A stretch of 64,000 nucleotides of DNA. It comes from Robbsia sp. KACC 23696 (GTDB taxonomy: Bacteria; Pseudomonadota; Gammaproteobacteria; Burkholderiales; Burkholderiaceae). Below the pieces are notes generated by a model. The model was not told where the DNA came from and did not search any database. It was given only the letters and a program-made list of their open reading frames with translations. Where the stretch lies: NCBI RefSeq assembly GCF_039852015.1, contig NZ_CP156628.1:186001-250000 (forward strand). The letters run 5' to 3'. Positions 26,174 to 49,942 of the stretch are shown here, in pieces; the first letter of the stretch is position 1; the number at the start of each line of letters is the position of its first letter. The translations under genes and the position numbers were made by a program.

Positions 26174-26201
26174 AGGGCGCTAGGGGCGGCAGCGTGATGC
26201 G

Positions 26202-33918: not shown

Positions 33919-34148
33919 GGGGAGGCGGGCGTCGCGGGCGCACGGTCGGTTTGTGCCGATCGTCTACCCAGCGTTTCTCATATCAATATGCCGTATCGTC
34001 GCTTGTGCGGCGATTTGCGTCAATCGTATGAAAGGCAACCTTGTTTGGAGCAGGGTTGCCGGGCGCCCAGCCGAAGCCGCCGTAGACAAAGCGGAAGGCG
34101 ACGCGCAAGCCGTCGGCAAGGGCGTCGATCCGCCCGATGCCATGCCCG

Positions 34149-34985
34149 TTACAATTTCACGAACGCGAGCAAATCCGCGTTGAGCACATCGGCATTGATG
34201 GTCAACATGCCGTGCGAGAAGCCGGGGTAGGTTTTCAATGTGCCGTGCTTCAGTAGCTTGATCGATTTAAGCGCGGCATCGGCGATGGGAACGATCTGAT
34301 CATCTTCACCATGCAAGACGAGCGTTGGCACCGAGATCGCTTTCAGGTCTTCCGTTTGATCCGTCTCGGAAAACGCTTTGATCCCTTCGTAATGGGCCTT
34401 CGCGCTGCCGATCATGCCCTGGCGCCACCAGTTTTGGATGACGCCTTGCTGGACCGTCGCGCCGGGGCGATTGAAGCCATAGAAAGGACCGGTCGGCACA
34501 TCGACGAAGAACTGCGCGCGGTTGGCGGCCAGCGCTTGTCGAAAACCGTCGAATACGTCGAGCGGTAGTCCCTCGGAATTGTCGTCGGTCTTGAGCATCA
34601 GGGGCGGCACGGCGCTGACGAGCACTGCCTTGGCGACACGGCCCGCCGGCTGACCGAATTGCGCGACGTAGCGGGCGACTTCGCCACCGCCGGTGGAATG
34701 ACCGATGTGAACGGCATTGTGCAGATCGAGTGCTTCCACCACGGCAAACGCATCGGCTGCGTAGTGGTCCATGTCGTGGCCTTCCGAGACCTGCGCCGAT
34801 CGACCGTGCCCGCGGCGGTCATGCGCAATGACGCGGTAACCGTGCTGCACGAAGAAGAGGAGTTGCGCATCCCAATCATCGGAAGACAGTGGCCAGCCGT
34901 GATGAAATACGATTGGCTGTGCGTCCTTCGGGCCCCAATCCTTGTAGAAAATCTCGACATGGTCTTTCGTCGTCACGTACGGCAT
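34149..34985 (-). CDS. Alpha/beta hydrolase, non-haem chloroperoxidase/esterase type
   Basis: A 278-residue hydrolase starting MPYVTTKDHVEIFYKDWGPK. The oxyanion motif HHGWP, nucleophile Ser97 in GHSTGGGE, Asp in VLHGEDDQIVP and His in YPGFSHGM make a complete triad, with the sequence of the cofactor-free haloperoxidase/arylesterase group. Cytoplasmic; physiological substrate unknown. The family's perhydrolase activity is a side reaction. AGGAA sits seven bases before this ATG; the ATG six bases upstream is too close. The 33919-34148 spacer to cysE holds nothing recognisable. Confidence 0.88.
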   Translation of the reverse strand: MPYVTTKDHVEIFYKDWGPKDAQPIVFHHGWPLSSDDWDAQLLFFVQHGYRVIAHDRRGHGRSAQVSEGHDMDHYAADAFAVVEALDLHNAVHIGHSTGGGEVARYVAQFGQPAGRVAKAVLVSAVPPLMLKTDDNSEGLPLDVFDGFRQALAANRAQFFVDVPTGPFYGFNRPGATVQQGVIQNWWRQGMIGSAKAHYEGIKAFSETDQTEDLKAISVPTLVLHGEDDQIVPIADAALKSIKLLKHGTLKTYPGFSHGMLTINADVLNADLLAFVKL

Positions 34986-35413
34986 GTTCATTTCCTGGTG
35001 TTTGTAGCGATTGGGAAAATAACGGACACTGCGAATTGGTGGCGGCTTTCGGATTACGCACTGACGCAAAGTATTATCGGAGATGGCTTGCAGCGTTGTC
35101 CATTTAATACTCCTGAAATATCTTGAAAATGGTCCGGCGGTGGGGGCTGCGACGCCGCTTTATGGCCTGGCGCGGCCGCTAGGCGAGACGCTCGTACGGC
35201 CTTTACACCTGCGGCTGTCCGCGATCCGCGGCGAGGTGCTGCGCCAATGCCAGGCCGATCTCGCGGGTTGTCAATGCCGCCACTTTAGGAGCAAAACCGA
35301 GGCAGATGAAGAGGGGTTTGGCTAATTTACGTTCCACAGATGTAGATAGTGGAAATTGTGCAGAGGAAGATTGTTTCGGATTTAAAGGAGAGGGAGGCGC
35401 GAGACTTTATCGG
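34986..35413. other. 428-bp gap, no convincing gene; possible gene remnant
   Basis: No full gene is seen. On the minus strand, roughly 35200-35300, an open frame ending GLALAQHLAADRGQPQV has coding-like codon use (GCG CAG CAC CTC GCC GCG GAT) but merges upstream into AT-rich sequence without a start, so it could be the end of a decayed gene. The part next to the hydrolase should contain its promoter. Confidence 0.35.
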
Positions 35414-35671
35414 TCAGACTGGCGTCGTGGCGCTTTCCAGTACGGCGATCCAATGCATCGCGTGCTCTCGGTTATCCCCACACATTGTCGGTTCAGGCTG
35501 GAGCGATCCGCAAACGTCCGGCCGCTCCGGGTGGCCGAAAATCTTGCAGCGCAGCGCGCTATCGAGCTGAATGCATTTTTCGCCGGCAGCTTTGCCAAGC
35601 GGCATGCCGGGAATCGGACTGGAAATGGAAGGGGCGATGCAGCATGCGCCGCATCCGGGACGGCAATGCAT
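35414..35671 (-). CDS. YkgJ-type cysteine-cluster protein
   Basis: An 85-residue protein starting [20 protein letters not shown]. Cysteines at C3, C7, C10 and C11 and later in KCIQLD, RCKIFG, DVCGSLQ and TMCGD give the pattern of the YkgJ zinc/iron-chelating family (UPF0153). The molecular role is unknown. The family-typical start at [11 protein letters not shown] was preferred over the longer frame. The C-terminal ALESATTPV-like end is near normal length. It stands between unrelated genes. Confidence 0.88.
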
Positions 35672-35796
35672 GGTGTGCCTGGATTCGTTTGACCGTGGGA
35701 TGGACGCATTATGCCAGAGTGCGAAACGCCCGATCTCGTCCGTCCCCGGGACGGAAAACTGGCCCGCCTGCATCGCCTGGGCCGCCGACCCGCGGA

Positions 35797-37008
35797 CTAT
35801 CGCAAAAATCCGATGCTGACCGGGCCCGCCATGTCCACCGACTGACCGCTATCCGTCACCATGCCGGTCGCGGTATCGATCGAAAACAGCCTGACCGAGC
35901 CGCTGCCTTGATTCGCGACGAAGATCCACTTCCCCGAGGCATCTATCTCAAAATCCCACGGCCGTTCGCCACCGGTCGACACGCGTTGTACCAGCGACAA
36001 CGTGCCGGCGTCGGGGGCGACGCGGTAAACGACGAAAGTATGTTCGCCACGGTCCGCGACATAGACGAAACGACCATCACGACTGAGCGCGATCTCGGCG
36101 CCGCTTTTAACACCGTTGAACTGCGGGCTGCTGATCGGCAACGTCTGCACCAACGCCAACTGTCCGTGCGACGCGTCCCAGCGCAGCACCATCACCTCTG
36201 CACTGAGCTCCGTCAACAGATAGACAAACTGCCCGTCCTTGCCGAAAACGAGATGACGCGGACCGGTGCCGGGCGGCGCAACGAAGGGTGCCGGACCGCT
36301 CGCGGCACTATCGGTCAGCATGCGCGTGGCGCGATCGAAGCGGTAGACGAAGACGCGATCGGCGCCAAGGTCGGGCACCAGCACGTAGCGGCCGGAAGGA
36401 TCCACGGCGGCGCTATGCGCGTGCGCGCTGGCTTGGCGGCGGTTCGGACCGGCCCCGGTTTCCTTTACCGTGGACACGAGCGAGCCCACGCTGCCGTCGT
36501 CGTTCACGGCGACGCTGACCAACGATCCGCTGCCATAGTTGGCGGCAAGAAATGTCATGGAGCGTTTGTCCAGCCACAGATAGGTCGTTCCCTTGGCTTC
36601 CGTGCTCACCGTATTGATTTTGCGCAACGTGCCGTCGGCCGGGTCGGCTGAAAACGCCGTGATGCTACCTTCGCTTTGCGTATGATCGTCCACCGAATAC
36701 AGGACCGGAACCTTGGAAGCGGGCGCTTTATTCGCAACGAGCCATGTCGAGGCGAGACCCGTTTCAACGACACCGATGTCTCGCAATGTGCCGTCCGCGG
36801 CATTGAAGCGCAACGCGTGTATCTGATTGCTTTGGGTGCCCACGTAAATGATTTCGTCGGCGGCTTGCGCGGTCGTCGCCGCAGCGATAGGGCCGGGTGC
36901 GGAAGGGGCCGCGTCGGCGTACGCTAACGGTGCGAGTAAGAGGAGAGAAAACAGCGCAACGATCGTGCCGAACTTTTGTGTTTTCGTGCTTTGCAGGAGC
37001 TGCATCAT
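35797..37008 (-). CDS. Exported lactonase-family seven-bladed beta-propeller
   Basis: A 403-residue protein of the 6-phosphogluconolactonase/CMLE-like lactonase family (PF10282). It has a clear signal peptide ([18 protein letters not shown]), unlike cytoplasmic Pgl. Repeating blades end in patterns such as [40 protein letters not shown] and [20 protein letters not shown]. In fungi this family includes carboxymuconate lactonizing enzyme, so a lactone from aromatic breakdown is a possible substrate. The element at 37063-37097 is 54 bases upstream, placing it in the local regulon. No ribosome binding site is obvious. Confidence 0.82.
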
Positions 37009-37062
37009 TGCATTTTAAGGAGAGAGTGAGCGCCTCTCATCCTAGCCCGGCGGCGGTACACC

Positions 37063-37097
37063 GTCCCTGCACAAAACGCCGATTCGCTGGTGTTTTT
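37063..37097 (-). promoter_or_regulatory. 35-bp conserved element, copy 1 (upstream of lactonase gene)
   Basis: Plus-strand reading GTCCCTGCACAAAACG...GATTCGCTGGTGTTTTT; points toward the lactonase gene (54 bases to its ATG) and touches the AraC stop codon. It is the most divergent copy but keeps GTCCCT, CACAAAA, ATTC, CTGG and TTTTT in register with the other four. Confidence 0.7.
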
Positions 37098-38050
37098 CAC
37101 GTGGGACCGTGGGGCAAGACTTTGTGATGCGACTGATTGCGCGCGGCGATGCGGAACTGGCTTGGCGCTTGACCCACTTCTCGACGGAAGAATCGGGTGA
37201 AGTAAGCAGCATCGCCAAAGCCGAGCCAAAAGGCAATTTGCTCCACCGACATATCGCCGAAAATCAAGGTGCGCTTCGCCTCGGTGATGATGCGCGCATG
37301 GATCATTTTCGTCGGGCTTTGGTCTGCCGCCGAGGCACACGCCGCACGCAATTGCACCAGTGATACGGCCATCATCGACGCATAGTCCTGTAGCGGCAGA
37401 TTCTCGCGATAATGCTGATCGATCAGCTTCCGAAAGCGGTCCACCAGACGCACGTCGTTGCGCATCGCACCGTCGTTACGGCTCTGGTCCAAGCGGGCTT
37501 CCCGCAACAACATGAGCAGCAAGGTCGTCAGGACCGCTTCGATGCCCACGACTTGACCGACTGCCTCCGAATCCAGTTCCTGCTGTAATCTGCCGATCAG
37601 GTTGTAGAAAGCCATGCCGGCTTCGGCGGAGTGGGAGAGGGAGATGATACGGGGGAGGGACCAGAAAGCGATGAATTCGTGAAGCTTGGCGTTGACCTGT
37701 GTCAAATATGCTTGCTCGATGGTGACCACCCACCGGTCCGCATCCAACTCATAGTCGAGACCATGGACGCAGCCTGTCGGCAACACCAAGGCACAGGGGC
37801 CTTCGAACGGCACCCGATACCCTTCCAGATTCATGATGCCGTGCCCATTACGCACGAAGATCACTTGACCATACGCCGGATGCGCGTGAGGCTCCGTTTT
37901 CCAACGACCCCGGTCCGTCACATGACCTACATGCACGAACCAATCTTCGGCGTCGGGACGATCGACGTATAAACGCACATTCGGCACGGTGGTCAGTTTC
38001 TTCTTCGTAGTCCAATTCGCTTGAACTTTGGTGATCACACTCTCTGCCAT
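37097..38050 (-). CDS. AraC-family regulator with N-terminal cupin (HpaA/PobR-like)
   Basis: A 317-residue activator-type protein. Residues about 40-130 form a cupin sensor (PHAHPAYGQVIFVRNGHGIM, LVLPTGCVHGLDYE); residues about 205-305 form the double helix-turn-helix AraC domain (LRAACASAADQSPTKMIHAR, FWLGFGDAAYFTRFFRREVG). Overall it resembles the HpaA/PobR group that responds to hydroxylated aromatic acids. It lies inside the aromatic gene region and is the best candidate to bind the five 35-bp elements. No such element precedes the araC gene itself. AAAGG is the ribosome binding site. Confidence 0.9.
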   Translation of the reverse strand: MAESVITKVQANWTTKKKLTTVPNVRLYVDRPDAEDWFVHVGHVTDRGRWKTEPHAHPAYGQVIFVRNGHGIMNLEGYRVPFEGPCALVLPTGCVHGLDYELDADRWVVTIEQAYLTQVNAKLHEFIAFWSLPRIISLSHSAEAGMAFYNLIGRLQQELDSEAVGQVVGIEAVLTTLLLMLLREARLDQSRNDGAMRNDVRLVDRFRKLIDQHYRENLPLQDYASMMAVSLVQLRAACASAADQSPTKMIHARIITEAKRTLIFGDMSVEQIAFWLGFGDAAYFTRFFRREVGQAPSQFRIAARNQSHHKVLPHGPT

Positions 38051-38234
38051 AATTTGCCTTTCTCCGCGGTCCGGCTGATAAGGCGGGGGTCGCCGTTGCG
38101 CATATCGACATCAATCGCAAGGCCTACCGCTCGGGACTCGCTGTATTTTTGCACACCGGCAGCATGCGCGCGAGATGAGGCTTTCCCGAATAAAGCGGCC
38201 TTGCGCTTGGCCGGCGCGGCGCATCGCCGAACGT

Positions 38235-39263
38235 TCAGAAGCGATGCACGATGCCGAGCGTCACGCCGCGCGTATTGGCACCCGGCGATACGGCCACACC
38301 GGCGTAGTTCGTACCTGTTAGTGTGAAAGCCGCCTTGCTTCGGTTCTGAATAAAGCCGGCGGCGCCGTACAGCGTCGTCCGTGTTGAAAGCAAGTATTCG
38401 TAAGTTAAGCCGACTTGCTGTGCATTGTTTCCTTGCCCTGTACGGTCATGTTCATACGCATACATGGCCACCACCATATTCGCCGGATTGAGCATATACG
38501 AGCCGGACAATTGGTACGTATCGCGCTTGATGCTGTTATCGGTTTGACGTTCGTTGTGGTACGCGAGAAAGACCCGGGCCGCGCCAAAGCTCATCGACGT
38601 GCCGGCATTAAATATTTTCAGCAGCGATGTGCCGGTAGCGTTGCCCGCCTGCTCGTAGCCGGCCGCAATGTGGAAAGGACCGTTGATATATTTGACGGCG
38701 GCATTATAGAACTGTAAGCCCTGTGAAGGTTTGGTCGTGGTGTCGCGCATCGCGACCATGAACTGCGCGCTAAGGCCGTAATACGTTGGCGTGAAGTACG
38801 AGATCGCATTGGTCTCCCGCACCGTCAGGCTGTTGAGGCTATTCATCGGTGAGCCGATGCTTTGCACCGCGAGCGGATCGAGTTCCGGATTCAGGAAAAT
38901 ATATTGCGGCGTATTCTGCAAGCCCAGACGGACCTCGCCGAAGTGACCGGATAGTCCTACCCAGGCCTGCCGATTGAATGCCGCGGTGGCACTCGCGGCC
39001 GCCCCGGTCTCGCCATTGAAGCCATCTTCCAACTGGAAGTTGACATGCAGGCCGCCGCCGATATCTTCCGTCCCTTTCAACCCGAAGCGACTGGCGAAGA
39101 GTCCACCCGACACCGCGCGGACCGTGGCTTTCGCGCCGTTCGGGCTCTGGTAGTCGATGCCGTTGTCGATGACGCCATAGAGGGTCACCGACGACTGTGC
39201 ATGCGCTGTGGGAAGCAGGCATGCAGACGCCATGCCCATTGCAAGAATGGCCAGTTTTTTCAT
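38235..39263 (-). CDS. Gram-negative porin (OmpC/Omp32-type)
   Basis: An outer-membrane trimeric porin of 342 residues. A signal peptide (LAILAMGMASACLLPTAHA) precedes QSSVTLYGVIDNGIDYQS, the standard start of beta-proteobacterial porins; the C-terminus ends in IVHRF with the terminal Phe needed for BAM-dependent insertion. It is clearly a paralogue of the second porin at 46502-47527: both share the TGTSLL/TGTSLQ, FMVAMRDTTTKP and NNAQQVG stretches. A 35-bp element 143 bases upstream suggests co-regulated uptake of an aromatic substrate. Confidence 0.93.
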   Translation of the reverse strand: MKKLAILAMGMASACLLPTAHAQSSVTLYGVIDNGIDYQSPNGAKATVRAVSGGLFASRFGLKGTEDIGGGLHVNFQLEDGFNGETGAAASATAAFNRQAWVGLSGHFGEVRLGLQNTPQYIFLNPELDPLAVQSIGSPMNSLNSLTVRETNAISYFTPTYYGLSAQFMVAMRDTTTKPSQGLQFYNAAVKYINGPFHIAAGYEQAGNATGTSLLKIFNAGTSMSFGAARVFLAYHNERQTDNSIKRDTYQLSGSYMLNPANMVVAMYAYEHDRTGQGNNAQQVGLTYEYLLSTRTTLYGAAGFIQNRSKAAFTLTGTNYAGVAVSPGANTRGVTLGIVHRF

Positions 39264-39406
39264 TTTGTCTCCATCTTCATTTTTTTTATCGTTTGGTCGT
39301 CTTGATATCGACCAACAACCCGGTGCTACTTTAGGTTTACCCTGAGTCGCTTTAGCTCCGCGTGTCTCTTTGAGTTGATAGGAACATAGGGCACTGCGCG
39401 TGACAC

Positions 39407-39441
39407 GTCCCTATACAAAATCAATATTCACTGGCATTTTT
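39407..39441 (-). promoter_or_regulatory. 35-bp conserved element, copy 2 (upstream of first porin)
   Basis: Plus-strand reading GTCCCTATACAAAATC...TATTCACTGGCATTTTT; reads toward the porin gene on the minus strand, 143 bases from its ATG. Forms a back-to-back pair with copy 3 in the same 423-bp spacer. Confidence 0.85.
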
Positions 39442-39486
39442 TTACAATCGTTTTTGCTCCTTCTGCCATGCAGCGCATTGCCTAAG

Positions 39487-39521
39487 AAAAATGCCAGTGA
39501 ATGTCGTTTTTGTGTAAAGGC
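39487..39521 (+). promoter_or_regulatory. 35-bp conserved element, copy 3 (upstream of Tsx-like gene)
   Basis: Inverted copy: AAAAATGCCAGTGAATG, then TCGTTTTTGTGTAAAGGC. Reads toward the Tsx-like gene on the plus strand, 165 bases from its ATG. The strongest match to copy 2 is TGCCAGTGAAT. Confidence 0.85.
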
Positions 39522-39686
39522 ATGCTTGCCGTCATCCCCTAAGATCCTTTTCGACAGCAACCCTTGTGTCGCGGCTGTTTTTTTTCGTCGCTGCACGTTG
39601 TCGTCGACGAAACCGACGAGCGCTTGGTATCGCCCTCTCGCCGGTATCGACATAAAACGATCCCTAATAGAAAATAGGACGGAGAC

Positions 39687-40694
39687 ATGAAGAACGGAGT
39701 CAAGCGGGTACGCGTCCGCAGTATTGAACGGTGCCCTGTATCGCGCCGCGCCATATCATCAGTTGTACGAAGGTGTGCGATAGGTTCGGCAATGCTCTTT
39801 TGGCTGGTGGACGTTTGTCATGCGGATGATGGCGTCGCACCCAACACAACCACGACAACGCCCGCTCGATCCGAGGGCGCGAGCCAGGCAAGCAGCGAAG
39901 GAGCGCCCCCTGTTACGTGGAACGACACTTACCTAGGCTTCCGCTACGGTACCGATTTTCACTATCCGGGTGTTCCCGACAAAGTGGCGCAACGCATCGG
40001 CACGTTGGCGACGACAGGCGGATTCAGATTCGGTAGCTATTCTTTTAACGTCGATTACCTTGTCTCCAATGCGGCAAATCCCGAAGCGGGCACCTCGCAC
40101 GAGAGCGCCACCGGTGGCGCGCAGGAGGTCTACAGCGTGGGTCGCGTGGAATGGAGCGCATCCAAGGTTCTGGGCCGTCCGATGCAATTTGGCTTCATTC
40201 GCGACATCGGCTTCACGACCGGTTACGAGTTTGGCACCAAGAACGATGCCTATGCCGAGGCCGCGCGCATGCTGGTCTTCGGGCCCACGATCGAGTTCGC
40301 CGTGCCGCGCGGATTTTGGAACGTCACGGCGGGCGTTCGGACCGAACACAACCACAATGGACTGACGAACACCGATGTCAGTTTCCACGCGGCATGGCAT
40401 CTCGAAAGTGCCTGGATGGTGCCATTCCGGCTCGGGCCCGTGCCATTGGTTTTCAAAGGTTTCGCCAGCGTGACGGGGCCCAAGGGGAAGGACGGCTTCA
40501 ACGTCAATACGACGACGGAATTCCTGACACGCGTCTCCGTGTTGGCGGACCTCGGCTCATTCGCAGGGCATCCGCGTGTGCTCTATGCCGGGGTTGGGTA
40601 TGAGTATTGGCACAATATGTACGGCACGCCTTCGTCGGAAACGGTGAATACGAATACATCGGCGCCGATGGTCATGGCGGAGATCCATTTCTGA
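39687..40694 (+). CDS. Tsx/OmpK-like outer-membrane channel
   Basis: A 335-residue outer-membrane protein with a long N-terminus: about 25 basic residues, then a hydrophobic signal (IGSAMLFWLVDVCHA) and a Thr/Ser-rich linker before the barrel. The barrel starts TWNDTYLGFRYGTDFHYPG and ends in the aromatic AEIHF; EYWHNMYGTP is typical of the nucleoside-specific channel-forming (Tsx/OmpK) family found near aromatic genes in Burkholderia. Nucleoside transport is not implied; uptake of the cluster's substrate is the inference. GGAG precedes the ATG. Confidence 0.85.
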   Translation: MKNGVKRVRVRSIERCPVSRRAISSVVRRCAIGSAMLFWLVDVCHADDGVAPNTTTTTPARSEGASQASSEGAPPVTWNDTYLGFRYGTDFHYPGVPDKVAQRIGTLATTGGFRFGSYSFNVDYLVSNAANPEAGTSHESATGGAQEVYSVGRVEWSASKVLGRPMQFGFIRDIGFTTGYEFGTKNDAYAEAARMLVFGPTIEFAVPRGFWNVTAGVRTEHNHNGLTNTDVSFHAAWHLESAWMVPFRLGPVPLVFKGFASVTGPKGKDGFNVNTTTEFLTRVSVLADLGSFAGHPRVLYAGVGYEYWHNMYGTPSSETVNTNTSAPMVMAEIHF

Positions 40695-40703
40695 TTGGAA
40701 ACG

Positions 40704-40760
40704 ACAAGGGGCAAGCGGCGATACGAGAGCAAGATCCCCGTATCGCCGTTTGCCCCTTGT
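40704..40760. terminator. Long bidirectional hairpin between Tsx-like and PD40 genes
   Basis: A 22-bp stem (40704-40725 with 40739-40760, one G-U pair, left arm ACAAGGGGCAAGCGGCGATA...) with a 13-nt loop lies between two convergent genes. No T run, so folding strength rather than a classical terminator. Confidence 0.75.
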
Positions 40761-40776
40761 TCCGCGCGACGGCGGC

Positions 40777-42759
40777 TTACGACGGGTCGGGAACGTATAT
40801 CGGCATCGACTCCTCCCACAAGGTGTCTTCGATGGCGTGCTTATCCGAGCCGTCGGCATTCATCACCCAGTTTTGTCCATCGGGCTGAAAGCTGTTGTCG
40901 TATAGCGCCAGCTCGTCGCGGAAGCCGTAGGAGCCGGAGCTGTAACCGATGCGTCCATCATAGAGCCAGACGGCATGTCCCTGATTCGCGCCATCCGTGG
41001 TCAGACGCTTCAGGCCGCTGCCATCCGGCTTGATCGTGAACACGTCATAGTTGAATTTATTCGGATCGTTCGGGTTGATCTGCTTGCGCGTGAAGACGAT
41101 CTTGCTGCCGTCAGGCGACCATCCCGGCAAGTTGTCGGCGTCCGTCGTCAAAATGGTCGTCGTATGCGTTGCCAGATCCAGTATGCGGAGTCCTTGTACC
41201 TTCTGGCTCCAGACGCGATAGACAATCTTTTTACCGTCCGGAGAATAGCTGGGGAATCCGGCATTGATCGTCCCGTCGGTCAAGAATTCCGGCTGCCCTT
41301 TCATGCTGCCGTCTGCCTTGACGCGCGCGATGCGGCCCGGTCCCGCGCCGCGCGTGAAGAACCAGTCACCGACGCCAAACGCGACCCATTGTCGATCCGG
41401 CGACCATGTCGGTTGGAACGCACCGGCTAAACCTTGTTTGATCATCACCGGATCCAGCCCGCTGCCGGCGGGATCATAGATCCGTTGATAGCCGGTGAAG
41501 TCGGGATTGATCGTCGCGATCGAGGAGTTGATGGCCTTCTCGGTATAGACCAGCTTCTGTCGGTCTTTCGAGAGTTGCGGGAAGACGTCGATATACGTGT
41601 ATCGCCAATCGGGATCGAAGCTGAATACCGGCGTGCCGTTGGCACGGGCCGGACGGAGCGTGATCTTCTCGTAGACGATCTTGCGCCCGTCGGCGGAGTA
41701 GTGCGGCGATCGGATACCTGAATCGCTGGTCGAGCGGAAGGTGCCGGCCGTGGTGTACAGCCCTTCATGCGATCCGCCCTTTACGTGATAGGCGATCGTG
41801 TCGTCAGTCAGGTATTGGGGAAAGACCTTGAAGCCCGGCGTCGCGGTCAAAGTCGTGCGCTTCAGATCCGACACGTTGACTGCAATCAGTTGCGACTCGA
41901 CCTTGTCGATGCCTTCGGGTCGGTGGGCACCCCACGTCGACTCTACCGGTGTTTCATAGAACACGACCTTTTTCCCGTCGGGAGACCACGATGGCGAGCC
42001 TTCATCGAAGCCTTCATGCGATGCAAGCTTTCGCCAGCCGGAGCCATCCGGCTTGATCATATAGATGCTGCCTTCCTGTGTGCGTTCCCATCCAACGGGC
42101 AGGTTGTGACCGCGCCAGTCGGAACCGATATCGGAAGATAGCGCAATCCACTTGCCATCCGGGGACCACGAGGGCCTGAAGAAGCTGTGCGGTTTGTTCG
42201 GATCGAACGGGATCGCACCCGTTACATTCTTCAGCGCACCGGTACGGATGTTCAACGTCCAGATATGGGTCGTACCGAACCCCTTCGCGCCTCGGCGCGA
42301 CGAGACGAACGCAATGATATCGGGGTCGGCAGGGGAGACGGCTGCTGCATCGTCCACCGCGATGTGATGCGTCAGCTGCTTTAGATGTGTCCCATCGACG
42401 TCGACGCTGTACAGATTCGATTCACCCAGACCGTCGCGCTCCGATGTAAAGAAGACTGTCTTCCCGTCTTTCGAAAACGACGCGTGATAATCGAAGCCTG
42501 GCGTGGGGATCAGTTTGTGTTCGTCCGACCCGTCCGCATTGGCGATATATAACTCGGAGGTCACGGGGCCGATGCGGTTAAGCAGCGCGACGCCTTTGCT
42601 TGCAGTGGCGGCTGCGGCATCGCCGGCTGCGCTCAATGCCACGCTGCCGATGGCAAGGCATGCAAGCACATGCTTCACGATGTCATAGGATAAGGACAAC
42701 GAAACGAATTGCGGCGTACGCGGGGTCAGGCGCGCCGTCGATGCGGATATACGGGGCAC
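40777..42759 (-). CDS. Exported TolB-like/PD40 beta-propeller protein
   Basis: About 660 residues with an N-terminal hydrophobic export signal (HVLACLAIGSVALSAAG, Ala cleavage site) and at least eight WD40-like/PD40 blades, each with a SPDGKxIxF-like end (WSPDGKWIALSSD, YSADGRKIVYEK, YSPDGKKIVYRV, WSPDGSKIVFTR). No catalytic peptidase domain follows, so it is a binding or lactonase-like propeller of unknown role. Start is uncertain: GTG 42759 is nine bases after GGAG; TTG 42774 is in the same frame. It is last in the probable operon 46276-40777. Confidence 0.78.
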   Translation of the reverse strand: MPRISASTARLTPRTPQFVSLSLSYDIVKHVLACLAIGSVALSAAGDAAAATASKGVALLNRIGPVTSELYIANADGSDEHKLIPTPGFDYHASFSKDGKTVFFTSERDGLGESNLYSVDVDGTHLKQLTHHIAVDDAAAVSPADPDIIAFVSSRRGAKGFGTTHIWTLNIRTGALKNVTGAIPFDPNKPHSFFRPSWSPDGKWIALSSDIGSDWRGHNLPVGWERTQEGSIYMIKPDGSGWRKLASHEGFDEGSPSWSPDGKKVVFYETPVESTWGAHRPEGIDKVESQLIAVNVSDLKRTTLTATPGFKVFPQYLTDDTIAYHVKGGSHEGLYTTAGTFRSTSDSGIRSPHYSADGRKIVYEKITLRPARANGTPVFSFDPDWRYTYIDVFPQLSKDRQKLVYTEKAINSSIATINPDFTGYQRIYDPAGSGLDPVMIKQGLAGAFQPTWSPDRQWVAFGVGDWFFTRGAGPGRIARVKADGSMKGQPEFLTDGTINAGFPSYSPDGKKIVYRVWSQKVQGLRILDLATHTTTILTTDADNLPGWSPDGSKIVFTRKQINPNDPNKFNYDVFTIKPDGSGLKRLTTDGANQGHAVWLYDGRIGYSSGSYGFRDELALYDNSFQPDGQNWVMNADGSDKHAIEDTLWEESMPIYVPDPS

Positions 42760-42859
42760 GGCATATGTCTCCAATTATTTTGCGTCACCGGCTGCCTTGA
42801 AAGCGCGCCGATGCGACAATTTATCGTTTCTTTTCGTCTTGATACAGTGGCGCTGCCGA

Positions 42860-43846
42860 TCAGTCTGCGCCGCGCCAGTACATGAAGCCCATGCCTTCAC
42901 CGGTGCCTGCTGCGGTACGCCAGCAAGGAACGTAGTCCACCAGGGTCATTTGCGCGCCGGTTTCCTCTACCGATTTCATCACGCTGACATACAACTTGAT
43001 CTCGGACGTCCCGGATTGATAGGAGCGATCGTCCACGGCGGCCAAGCCGTCGTAATCGTATTCGGCCAGCATCTTCATGATCTTCTTGTCGAATTCCTCG
43101 TCGTTGACGAAGTGCGACAGGCCCCCCGATGCGAAAATTCCTACGCGGACATCGTCGGGCCAGGCATTGATGGCATCGCGCAGGACGCGGCCAAAGTCGA
43201 TGCATCGCGCCATCGATGGCTGCGTAGGCGGATAGAAGCAGTTCATGATCACCGGGACATGCGGCGGCGGGTTGTCGCCCATGATCTGGTGATAGACGAA
43301 GCTGTAAGCATGCGGCACGACGGGGTAGTCGGGGAGCGGTTTCATCCAGACGTTGTCCGGCCAGGCGAACAAGTCGGTCAGATCGAAGTGTTCGCGCTGG
43401 AAGTGATCGATCAGAAAATGCGCCAAGGGCGGATGACATTTGTGCGTGACGTGATGGTCCGGCGCATAGACGGAGCGCTGCGGCGGTCCGTTATGGACGT
43501 CCTCGCCGGTGTATATCGCAATCGACGGCGAGAAATCGGTGAAGATTTCCTTTTGGTCTTTTCCCAAAATAATAGCGACGTCGATCTTGGCATCGCGATA
43601 GGCTTGGGCCATCGTGTCCAATGCCGTGCGGCAGCGTGCGGCGCGCGCCGTCCGTTCCTCCAGGGTGAGAAATGGGTCGAATGCGGCGCCGCGTTCTGCT
43701 TCCAGTTCCGGGTAGGTCCATGTCCGATTGCGGTACCACAGCTCGGGATTGTTTCTGTCCCGTTCTCCGTTTTTGAGCCAGTCTTCCGGCGCTTGCCCCA
43801 ACATGCCGCTGTGCGGCACGGCCATCCCGAATACGATCTTCGCCAT
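42860..43846 (-). CDS. Class III extradiol ring-cleavage dioxygenase (LigB superfamily)
   Basis: A non-haem Fe(II) dioxygenase of 328 residues. Family signatures: MAKIVFGMAVPHSGMLGQAP with the metal-binding His12, a conserved His region DHHVTHKCHPPLAHF, IMNCFYPPTQPS and FASGGLSHFVNDEEFD. The N-terminal pattern (APEDW..N..DRNNPELWYRNRTWTY) is closer to 3-O-methylgallate/gallate-type dioxygenases (DesZ-like) than to the shorter LigB of protocatechuate 4,5-dioxygenase. No separate alpha subunit (LigA) is visible. With the neighbouring decarboxylase-like protein it suggests ring opening of a hydroxylated benzoate; exact substrate unknown. Confidence 0.85.
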   Translation of the reverse strand: MAKIVFGMAVPHSGMLGQAPEDWLKNGERDRNNPELWYRNRTWTYPELEAERGAAFDPFLTLEERTARAARCRTALDTMAQAYRDAKIDVAIILGKDQKEIFTDFSPSIAIYTGEDVHNGPPQRSVYAPDHHVTHKCHPPLAHFLIDHFQREHFDLTDLFAWPDNVWMKPLPDYPVVPHAYSFVYHQIMGDNPPPHVPVIMNCFYPPTQPSMARCIDFGRVLRDAINAWPDDVRVGIFASGGLSHFVNDEEFDKKIMKMLAEYDYDGLAAVDDRSYQSGTSEIKLYVSVMKSVEETGAQMTLVDYVPCWRTAAGTGEGMGFMYWRGAD

Positions 43847-43919
43847 TTATAATTCCAGTCAAATAACACCGGTTTCACCGGTATCAATAAAGTGCGTGCG
43901 CTGATGCGAACGGCGATGC

Positions 43920-45200
43920 TTACGCTTCCCTCAGCTTGGCGTTGCCTTCCGTGACCTTGGGTGCCCATTCCGGGCGGAACATAAACACGGTGGTGACAGC
44001 GCCGATCAGCAGGAACACAAGGATCACCAGCATGGGCAGGTCATAGCTTCCGCTGACATGGAGGAGCCAGCCCGAGAGACTGGCCGCCACGCCGCCCGCC
44101 AGGCTGGTTGCCAACTGCTGTACGCCGGTTACCAGGCCGATAGCGGGTCGCGGGATCATCGTCAAGCGCGAGAGCACCAGGTTGTTCGCGGTGGCCAGTC
44201 CGAGCAAGGAGAGCGACAGCACGTTCCAGAACAGCGCCATGCCAAGCGAATGCGCGTAGGCGCCAAGCAAGACGGTGCATCCGCCGACAAAGCCGGCGAT
44301 CGTGAACGCCTTCCGCACGAACGTCGCGTTACCGCCCCGGGCGATCAGATGGTCGGCAGCCCACCCTGCCAACACGGCGACAATCGCGATACCGGCAAAA
44401 CTGAAGAAGGTGAAAAGGCCCGAATTGGCGATCGAAAGACCACGCTGTTCCACGAGATAGGCGGGCATCCACGTCATGCAGTAAAACGTGAAATAGCCGT
44501 AGCAGAAGTTCGTGATCATGCCGCCCCATACCACCGGACTTGCCAGAACACTGCCGAACGTCACCGTGCGGGCTCGCGTATCCGCCTGCACGCGGGCCGA
44601 CTTGGAAGGGAAATCATTCCGCACGAGCAGTGACCAGGGAAGCAGCCAGATCAAGCCGACGATGCCGGTGGCGATGAACATTGCCTGCCAGGAGTAATGC
44701 ACGATGAACCAGGCGCCCACTGGCGCGCCCAGTGCCGGACCGAATTTGTTGCCCATCGTGAGCACGCCCGCCGCCAAGCCGTTTTGGCTTTCGTCGAAGT
44801 TATTGCGGATCCAGCGGTAACTCGCGGGAATGACAATCGCCTCCGCCATCCCGATAATCAGCCGCAGCATGACGAGACTTTCCAGCGTGGTCACGGCGCC
44901 CATCAGTGCCGTGACGATGCACCAGAGGCCGAAGCAAATCGCATACGGAAATTTGACGCCGTAGCGGTCGGCCACCCATCCCATCGGAACCTGGAACAGG
45001 CCGTAGGACCAGAAAAAGGCCGAGTTGATCCAACCCCGGTCAACGTTCGTCAGCGCGAATCGCTTGATGAAGCTCGGGTCGGCCAGCACGCTGGATATGC
45101 TGGTGCGATCGACATACGAAATCAATACGCCGCTTGCCAGCAGGGCAAGGACGCCCCATCGGCTTGCGATGCCTGTGACGGCCGGCTTGCTTGTCTCCAT
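43920..45200 (-). CDS. MFS transporter, anion:cation symporter (ACS) type
   Basis: An inner-membrane symporter of 426 residues with about twelve spans. It shows ISYVDRTSISSVL in span 1, FGLFQVPMGWVADRYGVKFPY-type loop (here YGLFQVPMGWVADRYG), RWIRNNFDESQNGLAAGVL and the second-half GWAADHLIARGG. These are typical of the ACS group that carries phthalate, hexuronates and other organic anions. Located between the decarboxylase-like and dioxygenase genes with the same strand, so it probably imports the cluster substrate. GGGAG lies about nine bases before the ATG. Confidence 0.85.
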   Translation of the reverse strand: METSKPAVTGIASRWGVLALLASGVLISYVDRTSISSVLADPSFIKRFALTNVDRGWINSAFFWSYGLFQVPMGWVADRYGVKFPYAICFGLWCIVTALMGAVTTLESLVMLRLIIGMAEAIVIPASYRWIRNNFDESQNGLAAGVLTMGNKFGPALGAPVGAWFIVHYSWQAMFIATGIVGLIWLLPWSLLVRNDFPSKSARVQADTRARTVTFGSVLASPVVWGGMITNFCYGYFTFYCMTWMPAYLVEQRGLSIANSGLFTFFSFAGIAIVAVLAGWAADHLIARGGNATFVRKAFTIAGFVGGCTVLLGAYAHSLGMALFWNVLSLSLLGLATANNLVLSRLTMIPRPAIGLVTGVQQLATSLAGGVAASLSGWLLHVSGSYDLPMLVILVFLLIGAVTTVFMFRPEWAPKVTEGNAKLREA

Positions 45201-45295
45201 CGATGTGTCTCCCTCTCCTGCATTTTGTCTAGGCTAGGGCGGCCGAAGCGTTTAAGCTTTTTTTTCGCCGCCCTGTACGCGTTATGAGCAGGGCA

Positions 45296-46276
45296 TCAAA
45301 CGGCCAGAGGGTCGACGAACAGCGAGTCGATCGACATGCGGCGGGGCGTCAGTTCTTGCTTGAACGCCGTTGCTTCCAGCGCCTCGATCGTCTTGATATT
45401 CGCTTGCATCCCGTAGGGCAGCGGGTCGTGCCCGACGATGTCGCGCAGCGCCAGGTATTTCTTGTCGCTTGCGGTGGTCGCTTCGCCGGCGTCGAGGCGT
45501 TGCAGCCATGCTTGCTTTGCCTTCTCGAAGGCGTCATAGATCGATCGGGCGATCCACGGATGCTCGGCGAGAATGGCGTCTTTCACGACGATCGTGCCGT
45601 GCATCGGATAGATGCCGGTACGCTGGTAGTACGCCTTTTCAGCAACGGCAGCGTTCGGGAATAAATCGGGATAATTCGCTTCCACCTCTTGCCAACCGCC
45701 CGTCGGTGCGCCGGTGCGACCGATGCCGGCGTTCGCTTCGAAGCCTGCAACCAGTTCTCCCTTGGCCATCATATCGGCGAGCGAGCTGCCGGCCGGTGCA
45801 TGGATCACATTTTTCGGCAGCGTCAGCTGCGTAACGTGTTCTTCGTCATCCACGACCCAGGTAACTTTCGAGGAATCCAGGCCGTACTCATCGATCAACA
45901 CCTGACGCGTCCAGACGCCCGTGGTCACCGAATAGGCCCGCACCCCTACCTTTTTCCCCTCCAGGTCTTTCGGCGTCTTGATGCCGGCATCCGGGCGCAC
46001 CAGCAAGCCGCTATGGTGGAAGCGCCGTGTCACGAAGATCGGCAACGCTACGAACGGCGCGTTGTAAGCCCGCGCGATGATATAGGTGGTTGGCGCAAGC
46101 TCGCAGACATCGAATTCCACGTCGCGCACCATGCGACGGAACGCGCCGATCTGCGGCTGCACATTGACAAATTCGGCATCCACGCCTTCGATGGGAATGG
46201 TGCCGTCGCGCACTGCCGCCGTATGCGGGAAATTGGCAATCGCGATCTTGAGCGGTACTTTCTTAGTCAACTTCAT
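45296..46276 (-). CDS. 4,5-dihydroxyphthalate decarboxylase-like protein
   Basis: A 326-residue protein resembling Pht5-type 4,5-dihydroxyphthalate decarboxylase, which makes protocatechuate in phthalate catabolism. The fold is that of periplasmic-binding/NMT1-like proteins; no signal peptide is present, consistent with a cytoplasmic enzyme rather than an ABC receptor. Stretches: DFDVCELAPTTYIIAR-type (here FDVCELAPTTYIIARAYN), VGVRAYSVTTGVWTRQ, GWQEVEANYPDLFP and TGIYPMHGTIVVK. AAAGGAG abuts ATG 46276, so TTG at 46270 may be the real start. First gene of the operon; 35-bp element 95 bases upstream. A binding-only function is not excluded. Confidence 0.72.
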   Translation of the reverse strand: MKLTKKVPLKIAIANFPHTAAVRDGTIPIEGVDAEFVNVQPQIGAFRRMVRDVEFDVCELAPTTYIIARAYNAPFVALPIFVTRRFHHSGLLVRPDAGIKTPKDLEGKKVGVRAYSVTTGVWTRQVLIDEYGLDSSKVTWVVDDEEHVTQLTLPKNVIHAPAGSSLADMMAKGELVAGFEANAGIGRTGAPTGGWQEVEANYPDLFPNAAVAEKAYYQRTGIYPMHGTIVVKDAILAEHPWIARSIYDAFEKAKQAWLQRLDAGEATTASDKKYLALRDIVGHDPLPYGMQANIKTIEALEATAFKQELTPRRMSIDSLFVDPLAV

Positions 46277-46371
46277 CTCCTTTGCTGATTCGTCGCCAAT
46301 GGCGGGTGCCGATCGGCACGCCTTGGACTTTTCGACGTTATGGGAGAAGGATAGGAGACCAGCCGACGGAC

Positions 46372-46406
46372 GTCCCTATACAAATCGAACAATCAATTGC
46401 ACTTTT
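46372..46406 (-). promoter_or_regulatory. 35-bp conserved element, copy 4 (upstream of decarboxylase-MFS-dioxygenase-PD40 operon)
   Basis: Plus-strand reading GTCCCTATACAAATCG...AATCAATTGCACTTTT; points toward the decarboxylase-like gene, 95 bases from its ATG. Controls the probable four-gene operon on the minus strand. Confidence 0.78.
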
Positions 46407-46501
46407 GTCGGTGATCGAGTGATGGATCGACGCCCGACATTACCGGGCATTTCGAACGACGCGATACGGGACCCTAGGTGAAACCCGTAGTTACGCCCGC
46501 A

Positions 46502-47527
46502 TTAGAACCGATTGGCAATGCCGAACATGATGCCGCGCGCAAACGCGCCGGGCGCGACGGTGACGCCGGAATAGGCGGTGCCGTTCAAGGAGTAGGCCGC
46601 CTGGTTCCGATTCTGAATGATGCCTAGCGCGCCATAGACCTTGGTTCTTCGGGAAAGGCTGTACTCGTAGACCACGCCCACCTGCTGTGCGTTGTTGCCG
46701 AGACCTCGCTGATCGTGCGCATAGGCGTACATCAGCGACAATTGATCGGCGGCGGTGAAGGAATACGATCCGGACGCCTCGTAGATGGCAAAGTTTTCGC
46801 TATGATCGCTCTGACGTTCGGAGTGATAGGACATATACACCCGGCCGTCGCCGATGCCCATCGACGCGACGGCGCTGACGATGCGCTGCAGCGACGTCCC
46901 AGTAGCATTGCCCTGCTGTTCATAGCCCCCGGCAAGCCGGAAGGGGCCATGCACATACCGTGCGGCCGCATTGTAGAACTGGAGTCCATCGGTGGGCTTG
47001 GTGGTGCTGTCGCGCATCGCGACCATGAACTGCACGGTCAGGCCGTACATGACCGGCAGAAAGTAAGCGATGGCGTTATTGGACCGGACGGTCTCCGCCA
47101 TGAAGTTATCGAGTGGCGATGCAATGCTTTTCACGCCGGTGGGATCCATTTCATCGTTCAGCAGCAGGTACTCCGGTTTCTTCTGCCGACCGATACGAAA
47201 CTCGCCCCAATCTCCGGCAAGGCCGACCCATGCCAGCCGGTTGAATGCATATCCCGCCGTCTGTTGCGCCCCGGTCTGTCCTGAAAAACCTTCTTCCAGC
47301 GTAAAATTCAACTGCAAGCCGCCCCCGAGATCCTCGCGGCCTCTGAAACCAAAGACAGTGGCATACAGGCCGCCGGACACCGCCCGAAACGCACCGCCAT
47401 TGCCGCCGTTTTGGTATTCGATGCCGTTGTCTATCAACCCGTATAGGGTGACGGATGACTGGGCGTGCGCGGTGCCGAGCGCACAGGTGCTTGCCAAGAA
47501 CAATGCTGCAGTAAAACGCTTTTCCAT
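46502..47527 (-). CDS. Gram-negative porin, second paralogue
   Basis: A 341-residue outer-membrane porin starting MEKRFTAALFLASTCALGTA, with cleavage before QSSVTLYGLIDNGIEYQ and the terminal FGIANRF. It is homologous along its length to the porin at 38235-39263 (shared loops and the MRDSTTKPTDGLQFYNAA segment), a likely duplication within the cluster. It follows a 35-bp element at the large distance of 431 bases. The spacer 47528-48037 otherwise contains no gene I can support. Confidence 0.93.
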   Translation of the reverse strand: MEKRFTAALFLASTCALGTAHAQSSVTLYGLIDNGIEYQNGGNGGAFRAVSGGLYATVFGFRGREDLGGGLQLNFTLEEGFSGQTGAQQTAGYAFNRLAWVGLAGDWGEFRIGRQKKPEYLLLNDEMDPTGVKSIASPLDNFMAETVRSNNAIAYFLPVMYGLTVQFMVAMRDSTTKPTDGLQFYNAAARYVHGPFRLAGGYEQQGNATGTSLQRIVSAVASMGIGDGRVYMSYHSERQSDHSENFAIYEASGSYSFTAADQLSLMYAYAHDQRGLGNNAQQVGVVYEYSLSRRTKVYGALGIIQNRNQAAYSLNGTAYSGVTVAPGAFARGIMFGIANRF

Positions 47528-47958
47528 ACAGTCTCCGTATTGATTTTTTGTATTTGAATCTGACAGCTAGGAAGGGTGCAAAACGCGCTTTTTGTTCGAA
47601 TCGCATCGATGCACCCGGCCGGTATTGAAATCGTTATAAAATGAATATAGGTAGTAATACTTAGTAAATAGGCTGTGCCCGAAGCGTTAAAAGATGAAAG
47701 GGCATGCCACGCGTTGAAATGACATGCGCGACGAGAACGATAGGACAGCCAGACCCGCACGCAGGGGCGACCGTGTCGCTTCAATGGGCATCGCATCTGA
47801 GATGGCTGACGCCAATACGATGCCTTGCCGGGGAACGCGCCGTGACGGTGTTATCGGCGATAGCCCGCATTGCTCGACGTCGAACGTAGTCAAGAGCGCA
47901 TGGCGGAGTCGGATCGAACTGCCTCGATGCGCACAGGATAGGAGAGGGAGACGCTCAG

Positions 47959-47993
47959 GTCCCTACACAAAATGGATATTCAGTGGCACTTTT
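47959..47993 (-). promoter_or_regulatory. 35-bp conserved element, copy 5 (upstream of second porin)
   Basis: Plus-strand reading GTCCCTACACAAAATGG, then ATATTCAGTGGCACTTTT. Orientation toward the second porin, 431 bases from its ATG, which implies either a long leader or an unrecognised small gene between. Confidence 0.82.
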
Positions 47994-48037
47994 TGCGTAT
48001 AAGGCGCAAGTCGCGTGTGCTAGCGATGAAAGCTGGC

Positions 48038-48889
48038 CTAACCGCGCTGTGCCACCAGGCGAGACACGCTTGCCGCCGCGTCGCGCAGCGGTGCCAGATA
48101 GGTATCGATCATTTGTTGCGCATTTTTCCGCTGGGCGTTACCGCTGATATTCATCGCGGCAATCACGCGTCCCTGGCGATTCCGAATGGGCGCCGATATC
48201 GAAATCAAGCCCGCCTCCAGCTCTTGATCGACGAGCGACCATCCCTGATCTCGCACTTGTGCGATTTCGGCCTTCAGGGCAGCGGGCTCCGTTTTCGTGC
48301 GCGGCGTGCGCTGCGTTAACGTCGTTGCCGCGAGTCGCGCATCCAGCTCCTCGTCATCGAGCGCCGACAGCAACACGCGCCCCATCGAGCTGCAATAGGC
48401 CGGCAAACGGCTGCCGATCGATAAATTGATCGTCATGATCTTTTGCATCGGCACCCGCAGGACATACACGATCTCATGTCCGTCCAGCACTGCCGCCGAC
48501 GCGCTTTCCTGCACGCGCGCGGAGAGCTGCTCCAACACCGGCTCGGCCAGATTCCAGAAAGGCAGGGACGTGAGAAACGTAAAGCCCAATTCCAAAATCT
48601 TCGGCGTCAGCCGAAACAACCGCCCCTCCGTTTCGACATAGCCCAGCGTATGCAAGGTCAGAAGGATCCGTCGCGCACCGGCACGCGTCAGCCCGGTGGC
48701 CTCGGCGACGTCCGTCAGCGTCTGTGCCGGCCGTTCGGCATTGAACGAGCGGATTACGCTAAGGCCGCGTGCAAAGGATTGCACATACGTGTCACCGGGC
48801 CGGTCCTCGCGCGTGAGATCGGGCGCGACCTGTTGGCGAGTACGGGATAGGTCGGCGCCGTGCGCCACGTCTGCAGAATCGTCGGTCAT
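48038..48889 (-). CDS. pcaR: IclR-family regulator of the beta-ketoadipate genes
   Basis: A 283-residue regulator. A disordered start (1-35) is followed by TYVQSFARGLSVIRSFN and the winged HTH (TLTDVAEATGLTRAGARRIL), then the effector domain with PMQKIMTINLSIGSRLPAYC and SSMGRVLLSAL, which closely matches PcaR/PcaU/PobR. It is divergent from pcaIJF across the operator at 49067-49101. In Pseudomonas, PcaR activates pca genes in response to beta-ketoadipate. ATG 48889 was preferred over a longer frame. Confidence 0.92.
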   Translation of the reverse strand: MTDDSADVAHGADLSRTRQQVAPDLTREDRPGDTYVQSFARGLSVIRSFNAERPAQTLTDVAEATGLTRAGARRILLTLHTLGYVETEGRLFRLTPKILELGFTFLTSLPFWNLAEPVLEQLSARVQESASAAVLDGHEIVYVLRVPMQKIMTINLSIGSRLPAYCSSMGRVLLSALDDEELDARLAATTLTQRTPRTKTEPAALKAEIAQVRDQGWSLVDQELEAGLISISAPIRNRQGRVIAAMNISGNAQRKNAQQMIDTYLAPLRDAAASVSRLVAQRG

Positions 48890-49026
48890 AAGCGTGAATC
48901 GTCTAATAGGGAGGCGCGGCAAGCAGGCACCTCGCAGGGGAACCTTGCGAACGCCTGATGCGGTGTTCAACCAGCATTGCCAGCATTACCCATCCGCGCA
49001 CAAAAGGACCCAAGGGTTATCCCTTG

Positions 49027-49101
49027 TTGACCGGTCAAATAGGAGAAACCTAGTATGACAACAAATGTTCGTTTAGCGAATGTATGTTCGATATACGAAC
49101 A
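49027..49101 (+). promoter_or_regulatory. pcaIJF promoter and PcaR-type operators
   Basis: A -35 TTGACC (49027-49032), 18-bp spacer and -10 TAGTAT (49051-49056) precede two inverted repeats: GTTCGTTTAGCGAAT (49067-49081, imperfect) and TGTTCG-ATATA-CGAACA (49085-49101, exact arms). Spacing between them is 19 bp. They resemble the GTTCGATAATCGCAC site known for Pseudomonas PcaR. Confidence 0.68.
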
Positions 49102-49121
49102 AGTCAAGCGAGGAAAACCCG

Positions 49122-49271
49122 ATGGCGTCGGGTGATGTGCGCAAGGACAATGGAGCGGGCGCGGTACGGCACGGCTTCCGATCGTTGCCGTTGGGAATGA
49201 TCGGCGGGCTGTCCATCGCGTATCAACCGGGCGAAATCGCCCAGACTGGCTGGGAGTGGCAGGACAGATGA
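49122..49271 (+). CDS. 49-residue upstream ORF translationally coupled to pcaI
   Basis: Reads MASGDVRKDNGAGAVRHGFR and ends EIAQTGWEWQDR, with GAGGAAAACCCG before the ATG as a good ribosome binding site. Its stop overlaps the pcaI ATG (ATGA), so it would couple pcaI translation. I recognise no homologue. It may be a leader peptide, a small protein, or an untranslated leader. Confidence 0.42.
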   Translation: MASGDVRKDNGAGAVRHGFRSLPLGMIGGLSIAYQPGEIAQTGWEWQDR

Positions 49272-49942
49272 TCAACAAAATTTACGAGAGCGCGGCGGCG
49301 GCCTTAGCCGATATCCGCGACGAATCGACTGTCATGATCGGCGGCTTCGGCAATGCCGGGATGCCCGCCGAACTGATCGATGCCCTGATCGATCAGGGCG
49401 CGCGCGAACTGACGATCGTCAATAACAACGCCGGCAATGGCGAGACCGGGCTTGCCGCGCTGCTGAAAGCCGGGCGCGTGCGGAAGATCGTCTGTTCGTT
49501 TCCGCGCCAGACCGACTCGCACATCTTCGACGGCCTCTATCGCGCCGGCAAGATCGAACTCGAATTGGTGCCGCAAGGCAATTTGGCCGAACGTATCCGT
49601 GCCGCGGGCGCCGGTATCGGCGGCTTCTTCACGCCGACCGGTTTCGGTACGAAGCTCGCGGAGGGCAAGGAAGTCCGCGAAATCGACGGACGTTCCTATG
49701 TGCTGGAAAGCCCGTTGCACGCCGATGTCGCGTTGATCAAGGCGTTGAAGGCCGATCGGTGGGGCAATCTGGTGTATCGGAAGACCGCGCGTAACTTCGG
49801 TCCGATCATGGCCACCGCCGCGAAGACCGCCATCGTGCAGGTGTCGGAAGTCGTCGCGCTCGGAGAATTGGATCCGGAAGCCGTCGTGACGCCGGGTATC
49901 TTCGTTCAGCGTGTCGTGCAACTGACGCCGCGGGCCCTGTGA
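49268..49942 (+). CDS. pcaI: 3-oxoadipate CoA-transferase, alpha subunit
   Basis: With PcaJ it transfers CoA from succinyl-CoA to beta-ketoadipate. The 224-residue subunit reads MINKIYESAAAALADIRDES, VMIGGFGNAGMPAELIDAL with the glycine CoA loop, NNNAGNGETGLAALLKAG and GNLAERIRAAGAGI, near-identical in pattern to Pseudomonas PcaI. The ATG overlaps the upstream small ORF. Downstream pcaJ is 111 bases away, more than usual, with two hairpins in the gap. Confidence 0.95.
   Translation: MINKIYESAAAALADIRDESTVMIGGFGNAGMPAELIDALIDQGARELTIVNNNAGNGETGLAALLKAGRVRKIVCSFPRQTDSHIFDGLYRAGKIELELVPQGNLAERIRAAGAGIGGFFTPTGFGTKLAEGKEVREIDGRSYVLESPLHADVALIKALKADRWGNLVYRKTARNFGPIMATAAKTAIVQVSEVVALGELDPEAVVTPGIFVQRVVQLTPRAL

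Follow-up and report, generated by a model that had tools for sequence, protein, structure and literature searches.

Here we describe five 35-bp elements, candidate operators of an AraC/XylS-type regulator, in a 64,000-nt stretch of DNA (the window) from Robbsia sp. KACC 23696 (assembly GCF_039852015.1, contig NZ_CP156628.1, positions 186,001-250,000, forward strand). The reverse strand encodes a 7-bladed beta-propeller lactonase (35797-37008; Pfam PF10282, E 1.1e-92), the AraC/XylS-type regulator itself, which is HpaA/PobR-like (37097-38050; hereafter AraC), and, upstream of araC on the same strand, porin 1 (38235-39263; Pfam Porin_4). A Tsx-like 12-strand outer-membrane channel follows on the forward strand (39687-40694); it has no Pfam match, and its AlphaFold2 model is a 12-strand barrel with a predicted local distance difference test score (pLDDT) of 64, for which the best Foldseek match was Tsx (1tlw, E 1.9e-8). 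The remaining genes, all on the reverse strand, encode a PD40/TolB-like beta-propeller protein (40777-42774; Pfam), a LigB-type class III ring-cleavage dioxygenase (42860-43846; Pfam LigB, E 3.5e-12) with weak PDB matches to gallate and protocatechuate 4,5-dioxygenases, a major facilitator superfamily (MFS) permease (43920-45200; Pfam), a 4,5-dihydroxyphthalate decarboxylase-like protein (45296-46276; PDB 9jp7, E 9.3e-47), porin 2 (46502-47527; Pfam Porin_4) and an IclR-family regulator of the PcaR/PcaU/PobR type (48038-48970; TIGR02431, 341.8 bits, above cutoff).

Direct inspection of the sequence placed all five elements at the coordinates given by an earlier, sequence-only reading of this DNA, each with 35 bases and no gaps, and each pointing with the same polarity toward a different transcription unit. 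Element 1 (37063-37097, reverse strand; 47.3 bits in the 35-column matrix) faces the lactonase gene and has one base in common with the araC stop codon; it is the most diverged copy, CACCAGCGAATCG, with a score of 43.9 bits against the five-site matrix. Element 2 (39407-39441, reverse strand) faces porin 1, and element 3 (39487-39521, forward strand), which is divergent from element 2 and ends in TAAAGGC instead of TAGGGAC, faces the Tsx-like gene. Element 4 (46372-46406, reverse strand) heads the decarboxylase-MFS-dioxygenase-PD40 unit. Element 5 (47959-47993, reverse strand) faces porin 2. Distances to the annotated starts are 55 nt (lactonase), 144 nt (porin 1), 166 nt (Tsx), 96 nt (decarboxylase) and 432 nt (porin 2). 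The variable stretch inside the element, described before as three to four bases, is three (columns 19-21).

The five elements are real and far beyond chance. A degenerate (IUPAC) consensus allowing up to 3 mismatches matched four of the five in the window and nothing in 100 shuffles. When the 6,320,538-base genome was searched with a profile, five matches were obtained at E <= 2.4e-8, namely the five of the window, and the next had E = 0.53; these five strong copies all lie within 11 kb. The proposal of a local regulon is supported by this confinement.

A search with the AraC protein yielded 42 named loci in relatives, 40 of them with a full-length ortholog (67-80% identity), one with a partial copy (L043) and one with a distant relative (L044, 38%). 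With the matrix from the five window sites, 109 matches of at least 14 bits were found in 819,535 bases of these loci, three of them own-genome copies (L001-L002), vs 0 in the reversed sequences, and 38 of the 40 full-length loci have one or more sites scoring 22 bits or above. Paraburkholderia graminis C4D1M (L007) is among the relatives with sites. Site counts omit three of 114 matrix matches, which scored under 22 bits; alignment A1 leaves out 2 of 78 selected sites, and alignment A2 leaves out 14 of 44 AraC ORFs (open reading frames) as redundant. The element also stands before the lactonase gene on two Comamonadaceae plasmids whose AraC is 64-65% identical, with AraC and element side by side.

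The genes faced by these sites are largely constant. By an ORF/BLAST rule applied to the window and the named loci, 104 of 111 sites lie before a gene for a lactonase (35), a porin (23), a Tsx-like channel (22), a decarboxylase (16), an MFS permease (4) or a PD40 protein (4). Of the other seven, two precede chemoreceptor genes, one each an amidohydrolase gene, a DUF1302 gene and an aldehyde dehydrogenase gene, and two have no clear target. Gene order is reshuffled among relatives while the element stays with the genes, MFS or PD40 having a site of its own or lying inside an operon. Seventeen sites, in nine AraC-positive genomes, lie on a contig or replicon other than that of araC: 15 face the same families, one faces a contig end and one a chemoreceptor, which is 75-82% identical to chemoreceptors at two other sites. 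In three genomes the element precedes the gene for a 510-aa methyl-accepting chemotaxis protein (L003:18422, L013:13989, L062:436), which suggests that chemotaxis to the substrate is co-regulated. The label "aromatic-uptake regulon" given earlier is too narrow, since relatives' elements head ring-cleavage operons and, at these three sites, a chemoreceptor gene.

Two paralogous gene sets elsewhere in the same genome bear on what the element marks. The first (G000:C3 343527-352334, L078) holds LigB (89%), MFS (72%) and porin (61%) homologs with methylenetetrahydrofolate reductase (MTHFR) and GcvT-type genes, of the kind used for folate-dependent O-demethylation; the second (G000:C1 1939240-1948461, L088) holds a decarboxylase (83%), an oxalomesaconate hydratase (83%), an aldolase (82%) and a thiamine pyrophosphate (TPP) enzyme (76%). 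The element is absent from both, with best scores of -41.2 and -32.2 vs 41.8 to 61.8 for the five of the window. Therefore, the element here marks AraC-linked units and not protein families, and the L078 and L088 sets are presumably under other control.

Alignment of 99 sites gave the profile AAAArTGCCAGYGAATCTnnnTTTTGTGYARGGAC, with about 50 bits over 35 columns, a figure inflated by the relatedness of the sites and by their selection with a matrix; it is about double the 23.6 bits that would specify a unique position in this genome. The 3' part (TGTrTAGGGAC) is conserved about equally to the 5' part, and upstream of the 35-mer only a weak preference for A at column 0 is seen. Downstream, a TAnnnT hexamer starts at column 54, exactly 19 nt past the element, leaving an 18-bp spacer. 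This holds for 95 of 96 distinct sites and for every one of the five in the window; the runner-up among TAnnnT starts in the 96 has 4 occurrences. Columns downstream of the 35-mer had played no part in finding the sites.

From this conservation we infer that TAnnnT is the -10 hexamer. By the fixed spacing, the predicted -10 sequences of the window are TAGGAT for element 1 (37039-37044, reverse strand), TATGTT for element 2 (39383-39388, reverse), TAAGAT for element 3 (39540-39545, forward), and TATCCT for both element 4 (46348-46353, reverse) and element 5 (47935-47940, reverse). The earlier assignment of the -10 to the 3' end of the element (TGTrTAGGG) is ruled out by the fixed hexamer further downstream; TGTrTAGGGAC lies at the place of the -35, so TGTrTAGGG would be the -35-proximal part of an operator, and the element would reach from about -65 to -31, across a degenerate -35. 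That reading had also found no good -35, and the profile agrees: it holds no conserved -35, and with a 17-bp spacer the -35 would coincide with columns 31-36, where the element ends and its sequence does not resemble TTGACA. To regard the TGCCAnTGAAT half as the activator site would be too narrow, given that the 3' part is conserved about equally. The whole 35 bp is likely the activator site of an activator-dependent promoter, for which TGCCAnTGAAT alone is an insufficient description. As far as sequence can tell, the sites have the features of a sigma-70 class II activator-dependent promoter, namely a -10 at a fixed distance, no good -35 and a candidate operator reaching the -35 place. A sigma-54 type promoter was rejected: set against the sigma-54 consensus, the reverse-strand TGGCA reads away from the genes, and upstream of column 1 there is no conservation but the weak column-0 A.

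Two features of the spacing may be added. Elements 2 and 3 (39441-39487) are divergent and 45 bp apart, with their upstream operator ends facing, so that cooperative binding is possible. The predicted leader of porin 2 is about 400 nt long (47527-47958), and for 22 porin targets the distance from element to start ranges from 106 to 591 nt; no broad conservation was found in these 22 long leaders, only short matches or matches common to close relatives, and an Rfam search of 34000-49300 returned one chance-level match only.

Which protein, then, binds the element? Among 299 genomes of the family, the element was found in 24 and an AraC ortholog (E <= 1e-60) in 23, all of which carry 2-6 sites; the element is thus present in 23/23 genomes with AraC vs 1/276 without (Fisher p 1.7e-33). 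Of 379 genomes sampled across the order, two have the element, and it is these two that have AraC (2/2 vs 0/377); both already belong to the family set. The DNA-binding domain of AraC (Pfam HTH_18, E 9.3e-18, 64.7 bits vs a cutoff of 33.6) places it in the family with two helix-turn-helix motifs; its low-confidence structure model has seven helices in residues 197-309, and Foldseek matches include Rns and ToxT (E <= 1e-3) and the AraC and MarA domains (E 0.03-0.08). Its two recognition helices, with boundaries set by eye, are 95% and 96.5% conserved vs 84% over residues 21-304, while residues 21-120 reach 90% (L082 and L083 are left out of these figures). We favor AraC as the regulator because of its proximity, the XylS-like role of its family at aromatic operons and the conservation of both recognition helices. 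The suggestion that AraC (37097-38050) is the activator is further strengthened by the co-occurrence and by the sites nearby in 38 of 40 loci, and the element is very probably the docking site of AraC, with AraC the likely activator. More specifically, we put at about 0.82 the probability that the element is the operator of this regulator and forms a rigid 60-bp promoter module, made of the 35-bp operator, the 18-bp spacer and the TAnnnT -10.

A number of observations weigh against this assignment. No significant internal half-site repeat was found in the element at the 12 offsets tested: a direct repeat at offset 21 was the best of them, with p = 0.77 over all offsets and 0.12 for that offset alone; no inverted self-alignment of the profile scores above zero at any offset. 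The structure model of AraC is poor (pLDDT 53). It has nine strands in residues 24-112 of the N-terminal region (pLDDT mostly 49-74), where there is no Pfam match; full-length AraC-family matches reach a template modeling (TM) score of about 0.2. Two loci, L035 and L038, lack a site although each has an AraC paralog; the DNA of L035 stops about 50 bases past araC, and in L038 good matches to regulon genes are limited to araC and a chemoreceptor. The loci used to train the profile had themselves been found through AraC, the 299 genomes include several of the same species, and the large searches used stricter filters, with 18 candidates scored per genome for the profile and 7 for proteins, so that weak matches can be lost. 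Finally, genome G025 lacks an AraC ortholog (best relative 35 bits) yet has an element match of 31.0 bits, a score above those of the three weakest matches included for AraC-positive genomes (28.8, 28.4 and 26.0). This stretch (L069 8378-8412, TTTTTGTATAGGGAC) holds an indel (12.5 bits ungapped) and is followed by the hexamer TACTCC and, about 765 nt on, by a norB-like gene; the DNA read there holds no homolog of a regulon gene. It may be a relic, a chance match or a site of another regulator; relic or chance is preferred.

The strongest of the alternatives is that another regulator, in the island or elsewhere in the AraC-bearing genomes, binds the element and that AraC merely travels along. 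LigB is present at 86% identity or more in exactly the same 23 genomes as AraC, and therefore co-occurrence gives no means of telling AraC apart from the other island genes; the contact of AraC with the DNA is a predicted one. Other regulators do lie near some islands, an IclR at L074, a PadR at L075, a second helix-turn-helix protein at L076 and an IclR-like ORF at L073 and L077, but in a comparison that was not systematic none of these other families recurs across the five. In 38 of 40 loci the retrieved DNA contains both AraC and the sites, a count colored by the choice of the loci through AraC, and on the Comamonadaceae plasmids it is AraC that is kept adjacent to the element. We therefore consider a different binder unlikely. 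Much less probable still is an alternative sigma factor promoter with no activator operator. The strict hexamer spacing and the lack of a sigma-70 -35 consensus would suit it, but conservation from about -65 to -6 exceeds the footprint of a sigma factor, the downstream hexamer is sigma-70-like, and the factor would need to travel with the island, where none is annotated in the L074-L076 stretches. The neighboring IclR-family regulator adjoins element 5, belongs to the PcaR/PcaU/PobR family by a curated cutoff and lies beside ORFs that by eye resemble CoA-transferase and thiolase genes, but as a binder of the element it is scarcely credible and was rejected, since a search for its ortholog (E <= 1e-70, 7 candidates scored per genome) was positive in 205 of 299 genomes but negative in four (G015, G044, G077, G096) of the 23 that have AraC and element, and the profile, which has no inverted symmetry, is by eye unlike the GTTCGATWATCGNAC-type palindrome given for PcaR/PcaU/PobR in the accessible text of PMC8222616.

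With AraC as the activator, a mechanism can be proposed that takes conservation, fixed spacing, target genes and co-occurrence from the sequences and supplies the rest. Effector-bound AraC, probably as two monomers, would occupy about -65 to -31, with its proximal part over the position of the degenerate -35, and would recruit sigma-70 RNA polymerase in a class II manner, like XylS at Pm. This would jointly switch on entry through the outer membrane (two porins and the Tsx-like channel), import across the inner membrane (MFS), the decarboxylase-like protein, ring cleavage and the lactonase, and perhaps araC itself, via the porin 1-araC arrangement. What is unusual about this candidate site is its length, information content and rigidity in the absence of significant half-site repeats. 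An AraC-family mode in which two monomers and RNA polymerase together occupy an asymmetric composite site, so that the 60-bp module cannot drift, could account for this, and we regard it as doubtful.

The inducer would probably be the hydroxybenzoate substrate of the pathway or its product, and most likely, at low confidence, a gallate-like compound. In relatives the operon adds an amidohydrolase that strongly matches solved 4-oxalomesaconate hydratases (2gwg, E 1.4e-149; 6dwv, E 4e-142), another amidohydrolase with weak similarity to 2-pyrone-4,6-dicarboxylate hydrolase, an HpcH/HpaI aldolase and, in some of them, a TPP enzyme; the element-headed operon of the window is without these lower-pathway genes. 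Together with the LigB-type dioxygenase they resemble a route of the gallate/protocatechuate 4,5-cleavage type, and with low confidence we name gallate or a relative as the substrate. A link to gallate is also in keeping with the Acidovorax plasmid of L075, where a subtype B tannase (25191-26702) is annotated about 10 kb away from araC.

In agreement with the earlier remark that the site is not among described regulons, no description of the element or the regulon was found in the titles and abstracts searched, from which the subscription literature is mostly missing, so that it may be in print elsewhere. Of a literature search with sequence words, the two matches checked were a rice primer (PMC4165909) and a B. 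subtilis mutagenesis primer (PMC3217849). The present results tie a regulator of the AraC family, on which no published study was found, to a precise candidate operator and to targets across several Burkholderiales families. With one reporter, it can now be tested what an orphan ring-cleavage pathway, its porins, Tsx-like channel and chemoreceptors do and on which substrate, and a well-delimited inducible promoter of this kind is a candidate biosensor.

Several known systems invite comparison. In the accessible text of PMC12314914, the GalR regulon of Pseudomonas putida (galTAP, galBCD) puts a set of gallate genes under one activator, namely those for a permease, a porin, a ring-cleavage dioxygenase and the lower pathway; GalR, however, is a LysR protein with LysR-type sites, whereas here the regulator is an AraC protein and the targets include a Tsx-like channel, a lactonase and a PD40 protein. 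HpaA and the AraC-type PobR are closer in protein family: HpaA is the best NCBIfam match and the closest named family of AraC, yet AraC does not reach the HpaA equivalog cutoff (TIGR02297, 158.6 vs 274.65 bits). AraC relatives (37-38%) occur on two sphingomonad plasmids, on one of them beside pobA and a protocatechuate 4,5-cleavage cluster. The site published for A. tumefaciens PobR, CGTGCGATGGTCGGATT (PMC12285266, accessible text), is unlike this element. A comparative genomic study of aromatic regulators in Betaproteobacteria (PMC6449761, 2019) includes, in its accessible main text, AraC-type BenR with TGCA-N6-GGNTA, and a term search of that main text returned no gallate, porin, Tsx or dihydroxyphthalate. 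XylS at Pm and BenR are similar in kind, being AraC/XylS-family regulators of aromatic-acid catabolism whose long operator lies upstream of the -10 and extends to the site of the polymerase, as far as the accessible text of PMC5481539 goes, the reference list of which names an overlap, at Pm, of the sites for XylS and RNA polymerase. XylS recognizes a pair of 15-bp direct repeats in which TGCA and GGTA boxes are separated by six bases, whereas no significant repeat is present here and the TGCA-N6-GGNTA box pair of the XylS/BenR type, read by eye, is not in the profile of 99 sites. The control is of a familiar AraC/XylS type, of which this operator and its regulon are a new example.

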